Assembly (NCBI GenBank): GCA_903891045.1
Contig: CAITDH010000277.1
Coordinates: forward strand, 1-32,434
Length of the DNA stretch: 32,434 bases
Origin: an uncultured Desulfobulbaceae bacterium
GTDB taxonomy: Bacteria > Desulfobacterota > Desulfobulbia > Desulfobulbales > Desulfocapsaceae
Direction of reading: 5' to 3'
The notes under the pieces are model-generated. The model saw only the letters and a list, made by a program, of their open reading frames with translations. It ran no database searches and had not been told where the DNA came from. The position numbers were made by a program, and so were the translations under genes. Below are positions 6,891-29,650 of the stretch, piece by piece. Position 1 is the stretch's first letter. Each line of letters begins with the position of its first letter.

Positions 6891-8792
6891 CTACTTCTTC
6901 TTTTCCATTTTTTTCAGATGAACCTGGAGGACGGAAATCGCCGCCGGGGTAATGCCTGAGATCCGTGAGGCCTGACCAAGAGAGGCGGGACGCACCGTGG
7001 TCAATTTCTGCACCACCTCATTGGAAAGACCAGCCAGCCCTTTATATTCCATGCCTTCCGGCAGGACCATCGCCTCCATCTTTTTGAATCGATCTACCTG
7101 TTCCTGCTGGCGCTGGATGTAGCCATGGAACTTGATCTGCAACTGGATCTCATCCCGGACCGATGACCCGGCCAGTTGCTGGACACGCCCCTGGTTCTCC
7201 GCGTCCATGGGCAAGCGCACCAGTTGCTCCAGCCCCAGTTCAGGACGACGCAGGAGTTCAGCAAGCGACATCTTCTGTTTGAGCTCAACGCTCCCCTGGG
7301 CCAGCAAGGCCTCATTGATCGCTTTATCCGGCTTGACCTGGATGGATTCAAGCAGAAGCACACCCTGCTCAATAGCGGTCTGTTTTCCTCTGTATCGTTG
7401 ATACGCCTTTTCATCCAGCAGACCGATATCATGGCCGATCTGGCAGAGACGGGTATCGGCGTTATCCTCGCGCAACAGCAATCGGTATTCGGCCCGCGAG
7501 GTAAAGAGCCGGTACGGCTCTTTGGTGCCGCAGGTGACCAGATCATCAATAAGCACCCCAATATAGGCCTGGGAGCGGTCGAGGATAAGGGGCGCCTGAT
7601 CCCTGACATGATGAACAGCATTGATCGCCGCCATCAAACCCTGGGCAGCGGCCTCCTCATAGCCGGAAGTGCCGTTGATCTGTCCGGCCAAAAACAGACC
7701 GCGGATCCGTTTGGTCTCAAGCGATGGTTTGAGCTCCAAGGGATCCACGTAGTCATATTCAATGGCGTAACCGGGACGGATGATCCGGGCCTGCTCCAGC
7801 CCTTTGATGCTCTGGATCATAGCCACCTGAGTGGCCAAGGGCAGACTGGTGGGCAGACCATTAGGATAAACCTCGGTGGTATCAAGCCCCTCCGGCTCCA
7901 GAAAGACCTGATGACGATCTTTTTCCGGGAAGCGCATGACCTTGTCCTCAATCGAGGGACAATATCTGGCCCCAATCCCTTCAATAATCCCGGTGTACAT
8001 GGGAGACTTGTCGATGCCTGCCCGGATAATGGCATGGGTCTGGCTATTGGTATAGGTGATATAACAAGGCCGCTGCGGCAGAGCATACTCCCCTCTATTA
8101 TCAAAGGAAAAATGGACGGGCGGCTGATCGCTGTGCTGAATTTCCAGTTCGGAGTAATTGATACTGCCGGCGGCAATCCGCGGCACCGTTCCCGTCTTCA
8201 TCCGCCCCACCCGAAACCCGGCCTCCTTGAACCATCGGGCCAGACTGGTTGAGGGGCTATCCCCCATACGGCCGGCCGGAAAATGTTTGAGGCCCACATG
8301 GATCAGACCGTTGAGGAAGGTGCCGGTGGCCACCACCACGGCCTTCACCCGGATCTCTTCCTCAAGCGAGGTGACAAGCCCGCAGATCCGGCCATCTTCC
8401 ACCAACAGCGAATCGACCACGGCCTGGCGGATCTCCAAATTTTCCTGATTCTCGAGAATGGACTTCATCCGCAGACGATAGAGCAGGCGATCAGCCTGGG
8501 CCCGGGAAGAACGAACGGCAGGTCCCTTGCTGGTATTGAGACGGCGGAACTGAATAGAGGTGGCATCAATATTCCTGGCCATTTCACCACCCAAGGCATC
8601 AATCTCCCGCACCAGATGCCCCTTGGCCAAACCGCCAATGGCCGGGTTACAGGACATGGCGCCAATGGTATCGACATTGATGACCACGACCAAGGTCTTG
8701 CACCCCATTCTGGCGGCAGCGAGGGCAGCCTCACAACCGGCATGGCCGGCGCCAATCACGGCGACATCATAGGTGTTTATTTCTTGTGACAT
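6891..8792 (-). CDS. mnmG: tRNA uridine-5-carboxymethylaminomethyl(34) synthesis enzyme MnmG (GidA)
   Basis: [45 protein letters not shown] and [13 protein letters not shown] motifs. Start taken at internal Met (8792) rather than the ORF-track start 8837. Confidence 0.96.
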
Positions 8793-9640
8793 TCTTGCTC
8801 CAGGGGAGAATCTTTTTTCCACCAGATAAGGGCCCACTGGGGAGGATGTTCGCGGCGAATGGTAATCTGATTCCCCTCAGAGGAGATGATCCTGGACTCG
8901 AGATAGCGCCGTAACGCGTCTTCTTCCTTGGCGCTGAGGTCTTTGAACATCCAGCCGTAGGCCTGTATGGCCTCTTCCCTGTCAGTAAATACAGAATCCT
9001 GGTCCAATTTCAGGATATCAATACAGGGATGAATACCCATGCTGTAGAGAATATTGACAGTGTAGATATAATCCGGGCCAGACTGAAACTCGCGGCCAAT
9101 GGCCGCAAAGGCGGCCGGATCAAAAGGAGTGGGCGATATCCGGTCGGCAATAAAGACATACTCACCGGCATGATCATTGAGTTTCTGCAAGGCAAGAGCG
9201 AGGTTGTCAACTGCCAGCGACCGGGAGGCAATGGCAATATCGTATTTTTCTATTCCCAGTTGCTGCCAGTCATCTTCCCATGCCCCTTTAATGGTTCGGA
9301 TATTCTGGATATTTTTAGCCTGGGCCTGCCTGGTCAATGCCTCAAGCATCCCCGCTGAATAATCAACAGCGGTGACCGAGCGAACCTTCCCCGCTAGAGG
9401 GATAGCCAATGTTCCCGGCCCTGACCCCATGTCAAGGATGGTTCGATCTGGACCAAGCGGCAGACGCTCCAGCAAGAGAGAGACATACGAAGTCCCCGCA
9501 TTTCTGGTGGCAAAAGAGGCTGCCTTTTTATCCCAGTCAGCCGCCCCCTTGCTCGACCAGGACTTCTGTTTTCTCGCATTCTGCCACAGCAGATTCCAGT
9601 CGATATCTGCCAGTGTTGTTTCTGGGGGTATGATGGGCAT
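8777..9640 (-). CDS. Class I SAM-dependent methyltransferase
   Basis: [17 protein letters not shown] motif I and [14 protein letters not shown]; its 3' end overlaps the mnmG start by 16 bp. Confidence 0.85.
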
Positions 9641-9647
9641 AAAACCA

Positions 9648-9748
9648 CACAGCTTTCAAAAAATTTGAATAAGGAAACTCTAACCTGACACCTGACACCT
9701 GACACCTGACACCTGACACCTGACACCTGAAAAGTAGCACAGCTTTCA
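9648..9748. repeat. Heptamer array bounded by an 11-bp direct repeat
   Basis: CACAGCTTTCA at 9648-9658 and again at 9738-9748 (offset 90 bp), enclosing the ACCTGAC array. Confidence 0.85.
9683..9730. repeat. Tandem 7-bp repeat (ACCTGAC)n, about 6.9 copies
   Basis: ACCTGAC x6 plus ACCTGA, uninterrupted and identical. Confidence 0.97.
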
Positions 9749-24693: not shown

Positions 24694-26421
24694 ATGGGCC
24701 GAAGTAGAAAAAAAGACAATCTGTTGAAATACTTTATGCAAATGAAAACACTTGTTGCCCTACCTGTTCTTGGTATCATCTGCCTTTTAACTCTATCCAC
24801 GACTGCAGCCCAAGCCAAGTCTAGCATCCTCCTCTTTCTTCCCGCAATCGTCAATCATTCTCCCGCTCCTCCTGGAATAGGGACCCCGCCAAAAGGAAAT
24901 GGCCAATACACCCTCATTGCCTGGAATGAATTGGGGATGCATTGCATGGATCCCAGCTATGAAGATTTTTCGGTTCTTCCCCCTTACAACACCCTATTAG
25001 CGCAAGTTATTCGCCGTGGCGACGGACCAGCTATTATCACATCCAACATTACCGTCGAATATCGAATACTTGGAAACACCCGTTCTGATAACAAAACGAA
25101 CTTCTGGCAATATGCGCAAAAACTTTTTGGCTTGTCACAACCCCTTACCCCCAATATTGGCCTCAAAGGAAATGGCCTCAGTGGACGTATGACAGCGGCC
25201 GGAGACCATTTCGTTGCAGAGGCAATCCCACTCACCGAATATCTGGACAGCAACCTGAAAACACCTTATCCCTATCAGGTTGCTGAACTTGTGGCCAAGG
25301 ACAGCAACGGCAACATTTTAGCCAGCACCCAGACCGTTGCCCCTGTTTCCACCGAAATGAACTGTGCAGCCTGCCATAATGACAACGGTTCAGCAAATCA
25401 TGGTATTGCCACCGGCGTGGTGAAACAGAATATTCTTACACTCCATGATCAAAAGCACTCTACTACCCTCATGGCTCAACGGCCTGTGCTTTGCGCCAGT
25501 TGTCACAGTTCAAATGCCCTTGGCACTGCCGGCACAGGCATTCCTAGCCTGTCCAGTGCCATCCACGGAAGACATGCAGAAGTAGGCATTGACGATGGGA
25601 CAATGACAGGGACCTGCTATAAATGTCATCCCGGCACTCAGACAAAATGTCTGCGCGGAGCTATGTTTGCAGCAGGGAAAACCTGTTATGACTGTCACGG
25701 CAACCTCGCAGCTGTAGGAAACCCAAACCGCAAACCCTGGCTTGACGAACCTCGTTGTGATAAATGCCACGACGCGGCATACGGTGAAAACAGCGGCACG
25801 TTATATCGCTTTTCTAAGGGACACCAAGGCATCTATTGTCAGGCATGCCATGGAAGTCAGCATGCCGAATATCCTTCAACACAACCAAATGACAACATCC
25901 AGTCAATTCTTCTCCAGGGCCATGCTGGAACCGTTGATACCTGTACGGTCTGCCATATAACACAACCTTCTTTCGGTGGTCCCCATCAAGATACCATGCA
26001 CCCGATTGGCAATTCTTGGGTTAGCGGCCATCAAAGCGCCGACAAAAGTAACTGCGCCCAGTGCCATGGCACAACAAGCGCTGGTACCCCATACAGTGCG
26101 ATAAAAGTTGCAGAAACCATCAATGCGGGAGTGTATGGGATTAAAAACTGGGCGGCTGGTTATCAGGTAAGTTGCTATAGCTGTCACAATGGCCCCAATC
26201 CCATTTCTGGCATGCACCCGATTGGCCAGAGTTGGGTTAGTGGCCATCAAGGCGCTGACAAAAGTACCTGTGCCCATTGTCATGGCACAACAAGCGCTGG
26301 CACGCCATTAAGCGCAGTAAAAGTTGCAAAAACCATCAATGCAGGTGATTATGGAATTAAAAACTGGGATGCGGGCTATCAAGTCAGTTGCTGGAGCTGT
26401 CACAGTGGCCCTAATCCTTGA
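24694..26421 (+). CDS. Secreted multiheme c-type cytochrome, 11 CXXCH motifs
   Basis: CAACH, CASCH, CYKCH, CYDCH, CDKCH, CQACH, CTVCH, CAQCH, CYSCH, CAHCH, CWSCH; signal peptide LVALPVLGIICLLTLSTTAAQA. Confidence 0.93.
   Translation: MGRSRKKDNLLKYFMQMKTLVALPVLGIICLLTLSTTAAQAKSSILLFLPAIVNHSPAPPGIGTPPKGNGQYTLIAWNELGMHCMDPSYEDFSVLPPYNTLLAQVIRRGDGPAIITSNITVEYRILGNTRSDNKTNFWQYAQKLFGLSQPLTPNIGLKGNGLSGRMTAAGDHFVAEAIPLTEYLDSNLKTPYPYQVAELVAKDSNGNILASTQTVAPVSTEMNCAACHNDNGSANHGIATGVVKQNILTLHDQKHSTTLMAQRPVLCASCHSSNALGTAGTGIPSLSSAIHGRHAEVGIDDGTMTGTCYKCHPGTQTKCLRGAMFAAGKTCYDCHGNLAAVGNPNRKPWLDEPRCDKCHDAAYGENSGTLYRFSKGHQGIYCQACHGSQHAEYPSTQPNDNIQSILLQGHAGTVDTCTVCHITQPSFGGPHQDTMHPIGNSWVSGHQSADKSNCAQCHGTTSAGTPYSAIKVAETINAGVYGIKNWAAGYQVSCYSCHNGPNPISGMHPIGQSWVSGHQGADKSTCAHCHGTTSAGTPLSAVKVAKTINAGDYGIKNWDAGYQVSCWSCHSGPNP
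25996..26421 (+). repeat. In-frame tandem duplication of a di-heme unit inside the cytochrome gene
   Basis: MHPIGxSWVSGHQxADKSxCAxCHGTTSAGTPxSAxKVAxTINAGxYGIKNWxAGYQVSCxSCHxGPNP at 25996 and again at 26212 (216-bp period). Confidence 0.95.
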
Positions 26422-26459: not shown

Positions 26460-26499
26460 ATATTATGAGAGAGACACAACTGTGCCTCTCTCATAATAT
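26460..26499 (+). terminator. Long hairpin downstream of the cytochrome gene (possible terminator or mRNA 3' structure)
   Basis: ATATTATGAGAGAG (26460-26473) / CTCTCTCATAATAT (26486-26499) plus inner CACA/TGTG; no strong T-run follows. Confidence 0.55.
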
Positions 26500-26512: not shown

Positions 26513-26715
26513 AAGGATAAGAGGGGTAGTCGGTTAGCTCCACTTTCTTGCGAAAACTGCGTTGCCAGGCAACATTTCAACAAATATGAAATAAGTGTTA
26601 TTCCCATATATTACTGACATCACTGACATTTTTCTCACATTCAGTTTCTTCTCATGAGAAGCTTATAGAGGGATTCCGTTTCAGGTGGAGCTAACCGACT
26701 ACCCCCCAAGGATAA
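26513..26715. mobile_element. MITE-like element with target-site duplication
   Basis: AAGGATAA direct repeat at 26513-26520 and 26708-26715; interior 26521-26707 bounded by inverted repeats G(A/G)GGGGTAGTCGGTTAGCTCCAC (23 bp, 1 mismatch); no ORF inside. Confidence 0.85.
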
Positions 26716-26835: not shown

Positions 26836-28272
26836 TTAACTGGCTTCCGTCACCTGTTCTCCGGCAGCTCCCCGGCCATAATCATCATCAAAACGGACGA
26901 TATCGTCTTCCCCCAGATAGCTGCCATTCTGCACCTCTATGAGTTCCAGGGCAATCACCCCTGGATTTTCCAACCTATGCTGGACACCGGCCGGGATATA
27001 GGTAGACTGGTTCTCATGCAGCAGAAAGACATCCTCACCATTGGTAATTCGGGCAGTTCCAGTGACAATTACCCAGTGTTCATGCCGATGATGATGCATC
27101 TGCATGGAAAGTTTTTCCCCTGGATAGACCGTTATCCGCTTGATCTGATACCGTGGCTGCTGTTCAAGGACCGTATAACTCCCCCATGGACGAAAAACCG
27201 TCCGGTGAAACCGGAATTCATCACGATGTTTTTTCTTCAGGCGGGTCACAATCTTTTTCACATCCTGGGACCGTGACAAAGGCGCCACCAGAACCGCATC
27301 CGCAGTCTCAATCACCAGCGTGTCTTCAAGGCCAACGGTTGCCACCAGCTTGCTCTCTGAACGTACCAGACAATTTTTAGTATCTTCAAGGATCACATCA
27401 CCGGTACTGACGTTCCCCTGCCCATCCTTGGTGGATATCTTCCACAAGGCCTTCCAGGAACCGATATCACTCCAGCCAAGATTTGCTGCCACCACCGCTA
27501 CCTTATCGGTTTTTTCCATCAAGGCATAATCAATGGAGTCACTAGGAGACAAGGCCATGGCCTTGCTGTCTAAGCGATAAAATTTTCCATCCCGCAAACC
27601 ATGGCGAACAGATTCGGTCATGGCCAAGAGCATCTCTGGGGCATGAATCTCCATCTCGGAACGGAAGGTCTTGATGGAAAAGGCAAACATCCCACTGTTC
27701 CAGAAGTAATTTCCACTCTCGACATAGGCCATGGCCGTGGCCAGATCAGGTTTTTCCTTAAACGAGAGGACAGAGCTACCTTCACCCCGTTCTATATACC
27801 CATAGCCAGTTTCCGGACTCTGTGGCTCAATGCCGAAGGTAACAATGGCCCCTCCAGCCGCCAGCTCCACCGCCTTCTGCACCGCCTCGATAAATGCTTC
27901 CTGACGCAGGATCAGATGATCGGCTGGCAGCACCAGCAGGATGGTATCGTCATCACTTGTCAGAGCGCAGAACTCCACGGCCGCACACACCGCCGGCGCA
28001 GTATTGCGGCCAAGGGGTTCAAGGAGGATAGAATAACTGGCGACAACGGCCAGGGCATCAATCTGACTGCGGGTAATAAAACGATGTTCCTCGCCGACTA
28101 CCACCACCGGGGCAAGAACATCCTCAAGCTGACAGACCCGCAGCACCGTGGTCTGGAGCAGGGAATTCTCATCAATCAACGGCAAAAGCTGTTTGGGATA
28201 CAGCTCCCGAGACAGAGGCCACAACCTGGACCCAGTGCCACCGGCCAGGATTACGGGCTGGATTTCATACAT
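26836..28272 (-). CDS. manC: Mannose-1-phosphate guanylyltransferase / mannose-6-phosphate isomerase
   Basis: PVILAGGTGSRLWPLSRELYPKQLLPL nucleotidyltransferase motif; C-terminal cupin RPWGSYTVLEQ, HHHRHEHWVIVTGTA. Start 28272 chosen to avoid overlapping creD. Confidence 0.94.
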   Translation of the reverse strand: MYEIQPVILAGGTGSRLWPLSRELYPKQLLPLIDENSLLQTTVLRVCQLEDVLAPVVVVGEEHRFITRSQIDALAVVASYSILLEPLGRNTAPAVCAAVEFCALTSDDDTILLVLPADHLILRQEAFIEAVQKAVELAAGGAIVTFGIEPQSPETGYGYIERGEGSSVLSFKEKPDLATAMAYVESGNYFWNSGMFAFSIKTFRSEMEIHAPEMLLAMTESVRHGLRDGKFYRLDSKAMALSPSDSIDYALMEKTDKVAVVAANLGWSDIGSWKALWKISTKDGQGNVSTGDVILEDTKNCLVRSESKLVATVGLEDTLVIETADAVLVAPLSRSQDVKKIVTRLKKKHRDEFRFHRTVFRPWGSYTVLEQQPRYQIKRITVYPGEKLSMQMHHHRHEHWVIVTGTARITNGEDVFLLHENQSTYIPAGVQHRLENPGVIALELIEVQNGSYLGEDDIVRFDDDYGRGAAGEQVTEAS

Positions 28273-28303
28273 GTTGTTTCTCCTTGGGAAAGCCTGATAA
28301 TTA

Positions 28304-29650
28304 TCAGACTTCAACCTTGTCTTGTTCTGTTTCTATCGCATACCAATCAATCTTTCTCGTTATATACATAACCGCAGTCAGGACAATAAAGAGCCCCATA
28401 CTGCCCATGATCAAAGCATAATCTTCTAATTGAAGCACAACAAACAAGTATGCATACAAAATTGTCAGCACGCCCGAAATAGTAAAAGAAAACCGCAAAT
28501 TCTTGAGTATTCCCATAGAGTAACAAGTAATAACAAATGTAACCGCCAGAGCAGAGAGTATGTATGCAAAATTAAAATTTATATACTCAGATAGGGAAAG
28601 CAATAAAGTATAAAACAGCAGAATAGCCATACCGATCAAAAGATATTGTATGGGATGAACTCTGCGTTTATTGATTATTTCTGAAAAGAAAAAAGCAGCA
28701 AATGTAAAAACAATAAACATAACAGCATACTTGGAAAGTCTTGTTGTTTTTTGATAAATATCTGCTGTCAAAATTAATTTCAACCCAAATGCCGATTCCA
28801 TCACCTTGTATTGACTGCCTTCCCAAAATTGAGGATAATTTCTATTCAAATGCAAGACTTTCCATTCTGCCGAAAAGCCATCCTTTGTCACCTCCCTTGA
28901 TACGGGTAAAAAGGCTCCATTAAAACTTGGAGAAGGCCAACTTGATTGAATTTTAACAATATTAGTCTCGGCAACAGGAATAAAACTGATTTGCTGACTG
29001 CCATTGAGGTTCAAAGAAAAGGAAAAAGAATTCACCCCATCCGAAGATAAGGGTTGTATCAAAGCTCCAACTCCAGAAGAAGCTATGTCTGCTGTTTTCA
29101 GCCCCGGATTACAATCATAGCTGGACTGATTGAATTTAACGACTATTCTCTCCTGAATTCCGCGCATATCCGTAATTCCAATTGAAAAAAAGGTCTTATC
29201 CCAAAGGATGTTTTCCTGATTGATATTTAATTGATCCAGAGGTGGAAGCTTAAAATTGCCATCAAAGGTAAGTACCATATTGTACAACACTGCCTCATAG
29301 AGACTTCTATATCGAACCTCCGGCTTTATCCTTCCTGAAATATTTAATGTTTCCGGAAGGATATATAGATAATTTACATTAAATTTTTCTTTGTCTTTAT
29401 CATCTTTATAGAAATGTTTATACGGTATGGTAATAAATGGCCCCGTAATTGTTTGACTTGCCCCCCATTTCTCGCTGAGTTCACCGACCACCGAATTTCT
29501 CCTCAACTCCCTTTCATTGATTAGAGAACTTATCATCATTGTTGGTATCAAAAGTGCCAACACCAGAATGCCAATTGACACTATTTTTAACGTTGCGGAA
29601 TTCTTGACATAAGCAGATGCTTTTTTTATGGGATCTTGTGAAATGATCAT
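28304..29650 (-). CDS. creD: CreD-family inner membrane protein
   Basis: N-terminal TM LKIVSIGILVLALLIPTMMISSLINERE, then periplasmic region and C-terminal multi-TM YLLIGMAILLFYTLLLSLSEYINFNFAY typical of CreD. Confidence 0.88.
   Translation of the reverse strand: MIISQDPIKKASAYVKNSATLKIVSIGILVLALLIPTMMISSLINERELRRNSVVGELSEKWGASQTITGPFITIPYKHFYKDDKDKEKFNVNYLYILPETLNISGRIKPEVRYRSLYEAVLYNMVLTFDGNFKLPPLDQLNINQENILWDKTFFSIGITDMRGIQERIVVKFNQSSYDCNPGLKTADIASSGVGALIQPLSSDGVNSFSFSLNLNGSQQISFIPVAETNIVKIQSSWPSPSFNGAFLPVSREVTKDGFSAEWKVLHLNRNYPQFWEGSQYKVMESAFGLKLILTADIYQKTTRLSKYAVMFIVFTFAAFFFSEIINKRRVHPIQYLLIGMAILLFYTLLLSLSEYINFNFAYILSALAVTFVITCYSMGILKNLRFSFTISGVLTILYAYLFVVLQLEDYALIMGSMGLFIVLTAVMYITRKIDWYAIETEQDKVEV

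Follow-up and report, generated by a model that had tools for sequence, protein, structure and literature searches.

The 187-bp element at 26521–26707 of the window, the 32,434-nt stretch of DNA from an uncultured Desulfobulbaceae bacterium analysed here, is almost certainly a MITE, an internally deleted IS1595-family IS that retains both TIRs and was presumably inserted by a transposase acting in trans. An IS with the same ends is present in the same genome, related 187-bp copies lie at other sites in congeners, and the orthologous site is empty in three further congeners. The proposal in a preliminary description that this is a transposed non-autonomous element is borne out by these observations.

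Structure of the element

The left TIR, GAGGGGTAGTCGGTTAGCTCCAC (26521–26543, plus strand), and the right TIR, GTGGAGCTAACCGACTACCCCCC (26685–26707, minus strand), are complementary at 22 of 23 positions, with one mismatch and 21 consecutive perfect pairs. Both ends of the MITE are directly abutted by an exact 8-bp duplication, AAGGATAA, at 26513–26520 and 26708–26715. By simple arithmetic a perfect 21-bp inverted repeat inside 200 bp has ~1e-8 expected occurrences by chance, and the exact 8-bp direct repeat at its flanks multiplies this by a further ~1.5e-5. The coordinates, TIRs and intact target duplication given in the preliminary description are all exact. Its view that the element leaves no room for a transposase also holds, as the 187 bp contain no ORF of at least 80 aa and the transposase remnant on the reverse strand contains stops. 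The MITE is assigned to the minus strand because what it retains of an IS1595-family transposase gene, a decayed 5' end, reads on that strand.

The parent IS and its family

The source genome assembly (G000; 2.85 Mb, 377 contigs, 95% complete) contains only four TIR sites, namely both ends of the MITE and both ends of a full-length IS of 1054 bp at G000:C306:992-2045. The 21-bp ends of this IS are identical to those of the MITE, and it is likewise flanked by a perfect 8-bp duplication of its own, TTTTATAA (984-991 and 2046-2053). Its transposase gene is frameshifted into four pieces in different frames, which match both zinc-ribbon and DDE_Tnp_IS1595 domains. Two other candidates in the assembly were rejected. 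A TIR match on contig C257 is a chance occurrence inside a coding-looking region with no second end, and an IS1595-type transposase on contig C79 (intact 336-aa frame, 37% identical), considered as the mobiliser, has no such TIR around its gene.

The MITE segment at 26554–26707 (minus strand, ~154 bp) is colinear with the transposase-5' end of the C306 IS (G000:C306:1893-2045). MITE positions 34-64 match the IS at 87% and positions 128-187 at 80%, with a spacing of ~63 bp between the two matching blocks in each element. Near the inner end of the segment the codons T-Y-x-x-F-V-E-M-x-P-x-x-A are readable; on the minus strand the MITE has TYFIFVEMLPGNAVFA where the C306 IS has TYRSFVEMFPDDAACSA and a MITE of the congener G008 has TYRDFVEMLSNNAVFA. 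Because this remnant of the transposase start, ~20 decayed codons, runs into the other TIR, the MITE corresponds to the IS minus everything from around the twentieth codons to the far TIR.

An intact relative with the same TIRs (L062) measures 1043 bp core to core and is flanked by the duplication TTCATTAT. Its transposase of 335 aa matches PF12760 (E 7.6e-11), PF12762 (E 1.5e-33) and the NCBIfam model for IS1595 transposases, NF033547 (2.7e-58). A single ORF of ~335-346 codons is found in L062 and in two further relatives, L079 and L057, and 8-bp duplications of related IS also include TAAATTTA (L079) and ATTATAAA (L142). A search for solved structures related to the transposase by sequence found none. 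The IS1595 family is divided into seven subgroups. Members of the IS1595 family make an 8-bp target duplication and carry one transposase gene with zinc-ribbon and DDE_Tnp_IS1595 domains (PMC8101967). The parent IS and its intact relatives together show all of these traits, with a PF12760 + PF12762 transposase, an 8-bp duplication and one transposase gene.

Related copies, empty sites and age

Two congeners, G008 and G010, each carry two 187-bp MITE copies at other sites; those of G008 (L060 and L093) lie on contigs of Desulfocapsaceae bacterium (JAUSAB), which points to the same family as the likely source of the window. All four are 80-81% identical to the MITE of the source genome, share its internal junction and are each flanked by a different 8-bp duplication. 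Copy number is thus low, with one in the source genome and two in each of these congeners, and a search of 93 genomes of the family found no further copies outside the genus at E 1e-6. The genome of G010 also contains a TIR-bounded IS derivative of 679 bp (L144:1292-1970), with the inner motif TGCCAC and part of the transposase kept, which is a deletion derivative of intermediate size. A second MITE type in the same genome (L127:1503-1684 and L130:1503-1684) has a different body, 182 bp core to core, the inner motif CGTCAC and likewise 8-bp duplications at its flanks.

The orthologous intergenic region lacks the MITE in three congeners, G007, G015 and G012. In alignments across the insertion point one segment, with a single matching 8 bp, replaces AAGGATAA-MITE-AAGGATAA; the comparison was made by local alignment, as the flanks have diverged. 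Because the locus is empty in these congeners, the insertion postdates the divergence of their lineages from that of the source genome. The earlier suggestion of a recent insertion stands to this extent and agrees with the perfect duplication. It is weakened by the ~20% difference between copies of different species and by the frameshifts in the only matching IS.

Genomic setting

The MITE sits between the 3' ends of two convergent genes, stop codon to stop codon. One encodes a 575-aa multihaem cytochrome (24694-26421, plus strand; Cytochrome_C7, Paired_CXXCH_1), the other a mannose-1-phosphate guanylyltransferase/mannose-6-phosphate isomerase (26836-28314, minus strand; NTP_transferase, MannoseP_isomer). 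Between the cytochrome gene and the MITE lies a near-perfect palindrome of 40 bp, ATATTATGAGAGAGACAC..GTGCCTCTCTCATAATAT (26460-26499), which is single copy in the genome and conserved in the corresponding position of G007, G015, G012 and G008. This hairpin is probably a terminator for both convergent genes.

The cytochrome gene itself contains a 216-bp tandem duplication (25995-26417, 83% matches), which repeats a 72-aa haem-binding unit at the C-terminus. The proteins of several congeners align with it only as far as residue 433 or 504. Elsewhere in the window, a perfect heptamer array, ACCTGAC x 6.9, is found at 9683-9730 upstream of a methyltransferase-like gene (8777-9640).

Alternative origins

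The element could be structured DNA or RNA maintained by the host, such as a conserved hairpin RNA, a REP-like sequence or a terminator, which resembles a MITE in looks while being functional at this site. Strong folding of both strands (-69.9 kcal/mol with z -7.9, and -70.8 kcal/mol with z -6.8) and the location between convergent genes both point in this direction. However, the TIRs account for the folding stability, the terminator position is already filled by the separate conserved hairpin at 26460-26499, and no Rfam match occurs anywhere in the window, on which grounds the RNA family or riboswitch reading is rejected. Absence of the element at the orthologous site in the three congeners refutes such an origin, and this explanation is very unlikely overall. 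A MITE of another family that duplicates 8 bp, for example IS66, is the least probable of the alternatives and can practically be dismissed. IS66 elements likewise make 8-bp duplications, which is why the preliminary description offered IS1595 or IS66 as candidates. Only IS1595 survives from that pair, as no models other than those of IS1595 match the C306 IS, whose TIRs are identical to those of the MITE, or its intact relatives, and none of them has an IS66-type transposase. The annotated IS1595-like ISCsp2 also has recognisably related ends (GGGGTATCTATTTAGCTCCAG).

A further question is whether the 187-bp elements descend from a single MITE or whether each species' element arose by a separate deletion from its local IS. 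In favour of separate deletions, both arms of the G010 copies show the same change of the inner motif, AGTCAC for CTCCAC, and the distinct 679-bp derivative is found in the same genome. Against this, MITEs of different species share the same internal junction, and they are 80-86% identical to each other, whereas a MITE and any IS end that can be aligned with it agree at 60-67%. Separate deletions are therefore improbable, if less so than a host-maintained hairpin.

Proposed origin and mobility

The preferred reading, a MITE derived from an IS1595-family IS, would begin with an internal deletion that kept both TIRs and ~130 bp beside the transposase-5' end. The transposase, supplied by a full-length IS that shares these ends, would have bound and cut the MITE TIRs in trans. 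Insertion would then have taken place between the 3' ends of the cytochrome and guanylyltransferase genes, with repair of an 8-bp staggered cut producing the AAGGATAA duplication. Mobilisation in trans by an IS1595-type transposase is suggested by the ends and the 8-bp length of duplication that the MITE and the IS have in common. Since the assembly contains a single matching IS and this one is frameshifted, the MITE is probably immobile, or stranded, today. No intact transposase with these TIRs was found in the 377 contigs of the 95% complete assembly; it may be that an intact IS copy is missing from the assembly or that the frameshifts in the C306 IS are assembly errors.

Distribution of the TIR and its inner motif

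A scan with 17 bp of the TIR against 84,980 species, each represented by one genome, returned 99 stretches from many phyla. Perfect 8-bp duplications flank 17 of the 24 assessable short TIR pairs (<350 bp), as opposed to 2 of 1200 random placements with equal freedom of offset, which rules out chance repeats. In several metagenome-derived genomes the TIR lies within ~130 bases of contig ends (L027, L033, L036, L053, L054, L064, L066, L071, L080), a pattern that assembly breaks at multi-copy elements of the TIR family would produce. A literature search with the TIR letters gave only unrelated matches among the matches listed.

The outer TIR block, GGGGTAGTCGGTTAG, is constant across many phyla and the inner six bases vary among elements. 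Between the two ends of one element these inner bases differ at a mean of 0.47 positions (n=17). Reassigning the right ends at random to other elements raises this mean to 1.40, and the smallest value in 2000 shuffles was 0.76; the sample is biased by seeding the scan with CTCC-type ends, and some of its elements are related. The matching of inner motifs between ends is consequently a lead and no proof of co-evolution. The same pairing is seen within the genus, with CTCCAC in the MITEs of the source genome and G008 and AGTCAC in those of G010, matched in both arms. Tentatively, and with the odds against it, the two TIR arms may evolve in concert even in MITEs seemingly of one ancestor. If so, this could reflect conversion between the two arms of a MITE, or selection that tracks a changing transposase specificity, and MITEs could be cross-mobilised between unrelated hosts. 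A TIR common to many phyla with paired inner motifs forms a small natural data set on the joint change of transposase specificity and TIRs.

Significance and comparison with known systems

The parent IS, the sister copies and the empty sites are all documented here along with the MITE, which marks past IS1595 activity in the genus. For annotation, 26521–26707 should be read as neither a gene, a riboswitch nor a regulatory hairpin. Among known MITEs of similar size (178-235 bp) is Chunjie of Geobacter uraniireducens, with 38 copies in one genome; as described in a review (PMC10969869), it likewise occupies intergenic places of an anaerobic bacterium. G. uraniireducens is absent among the matches of the TIR scan, so no link to Chunjie is shown. 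ISCsp2, an IS1595-like element from plasmids of Comamonas and Diaphorobacter, encodes a transposase 50% identical to that of L062. Its TIR resembles GGGGTAGTCGGTTAGCTCCAC at ~15 of 21 positions, with a different TIR middle, and unlike the MITE it is full-length with its own transposase gene. Haloquadratum walsbyi carries 165-bp MITEs related to ISHwa6 of the IS1595 family (PMC3852290). These are alike in family, similar size, inverted repeats (25 bp) and 8-bp duplication, a likeness drawn from their published description, but they differ in having an archaeal host and seven copies in one genome. IS1595-family IS and MITEs with 8-bp duplications are thus already known, and the present MITE is a further example of an ordinary kind.
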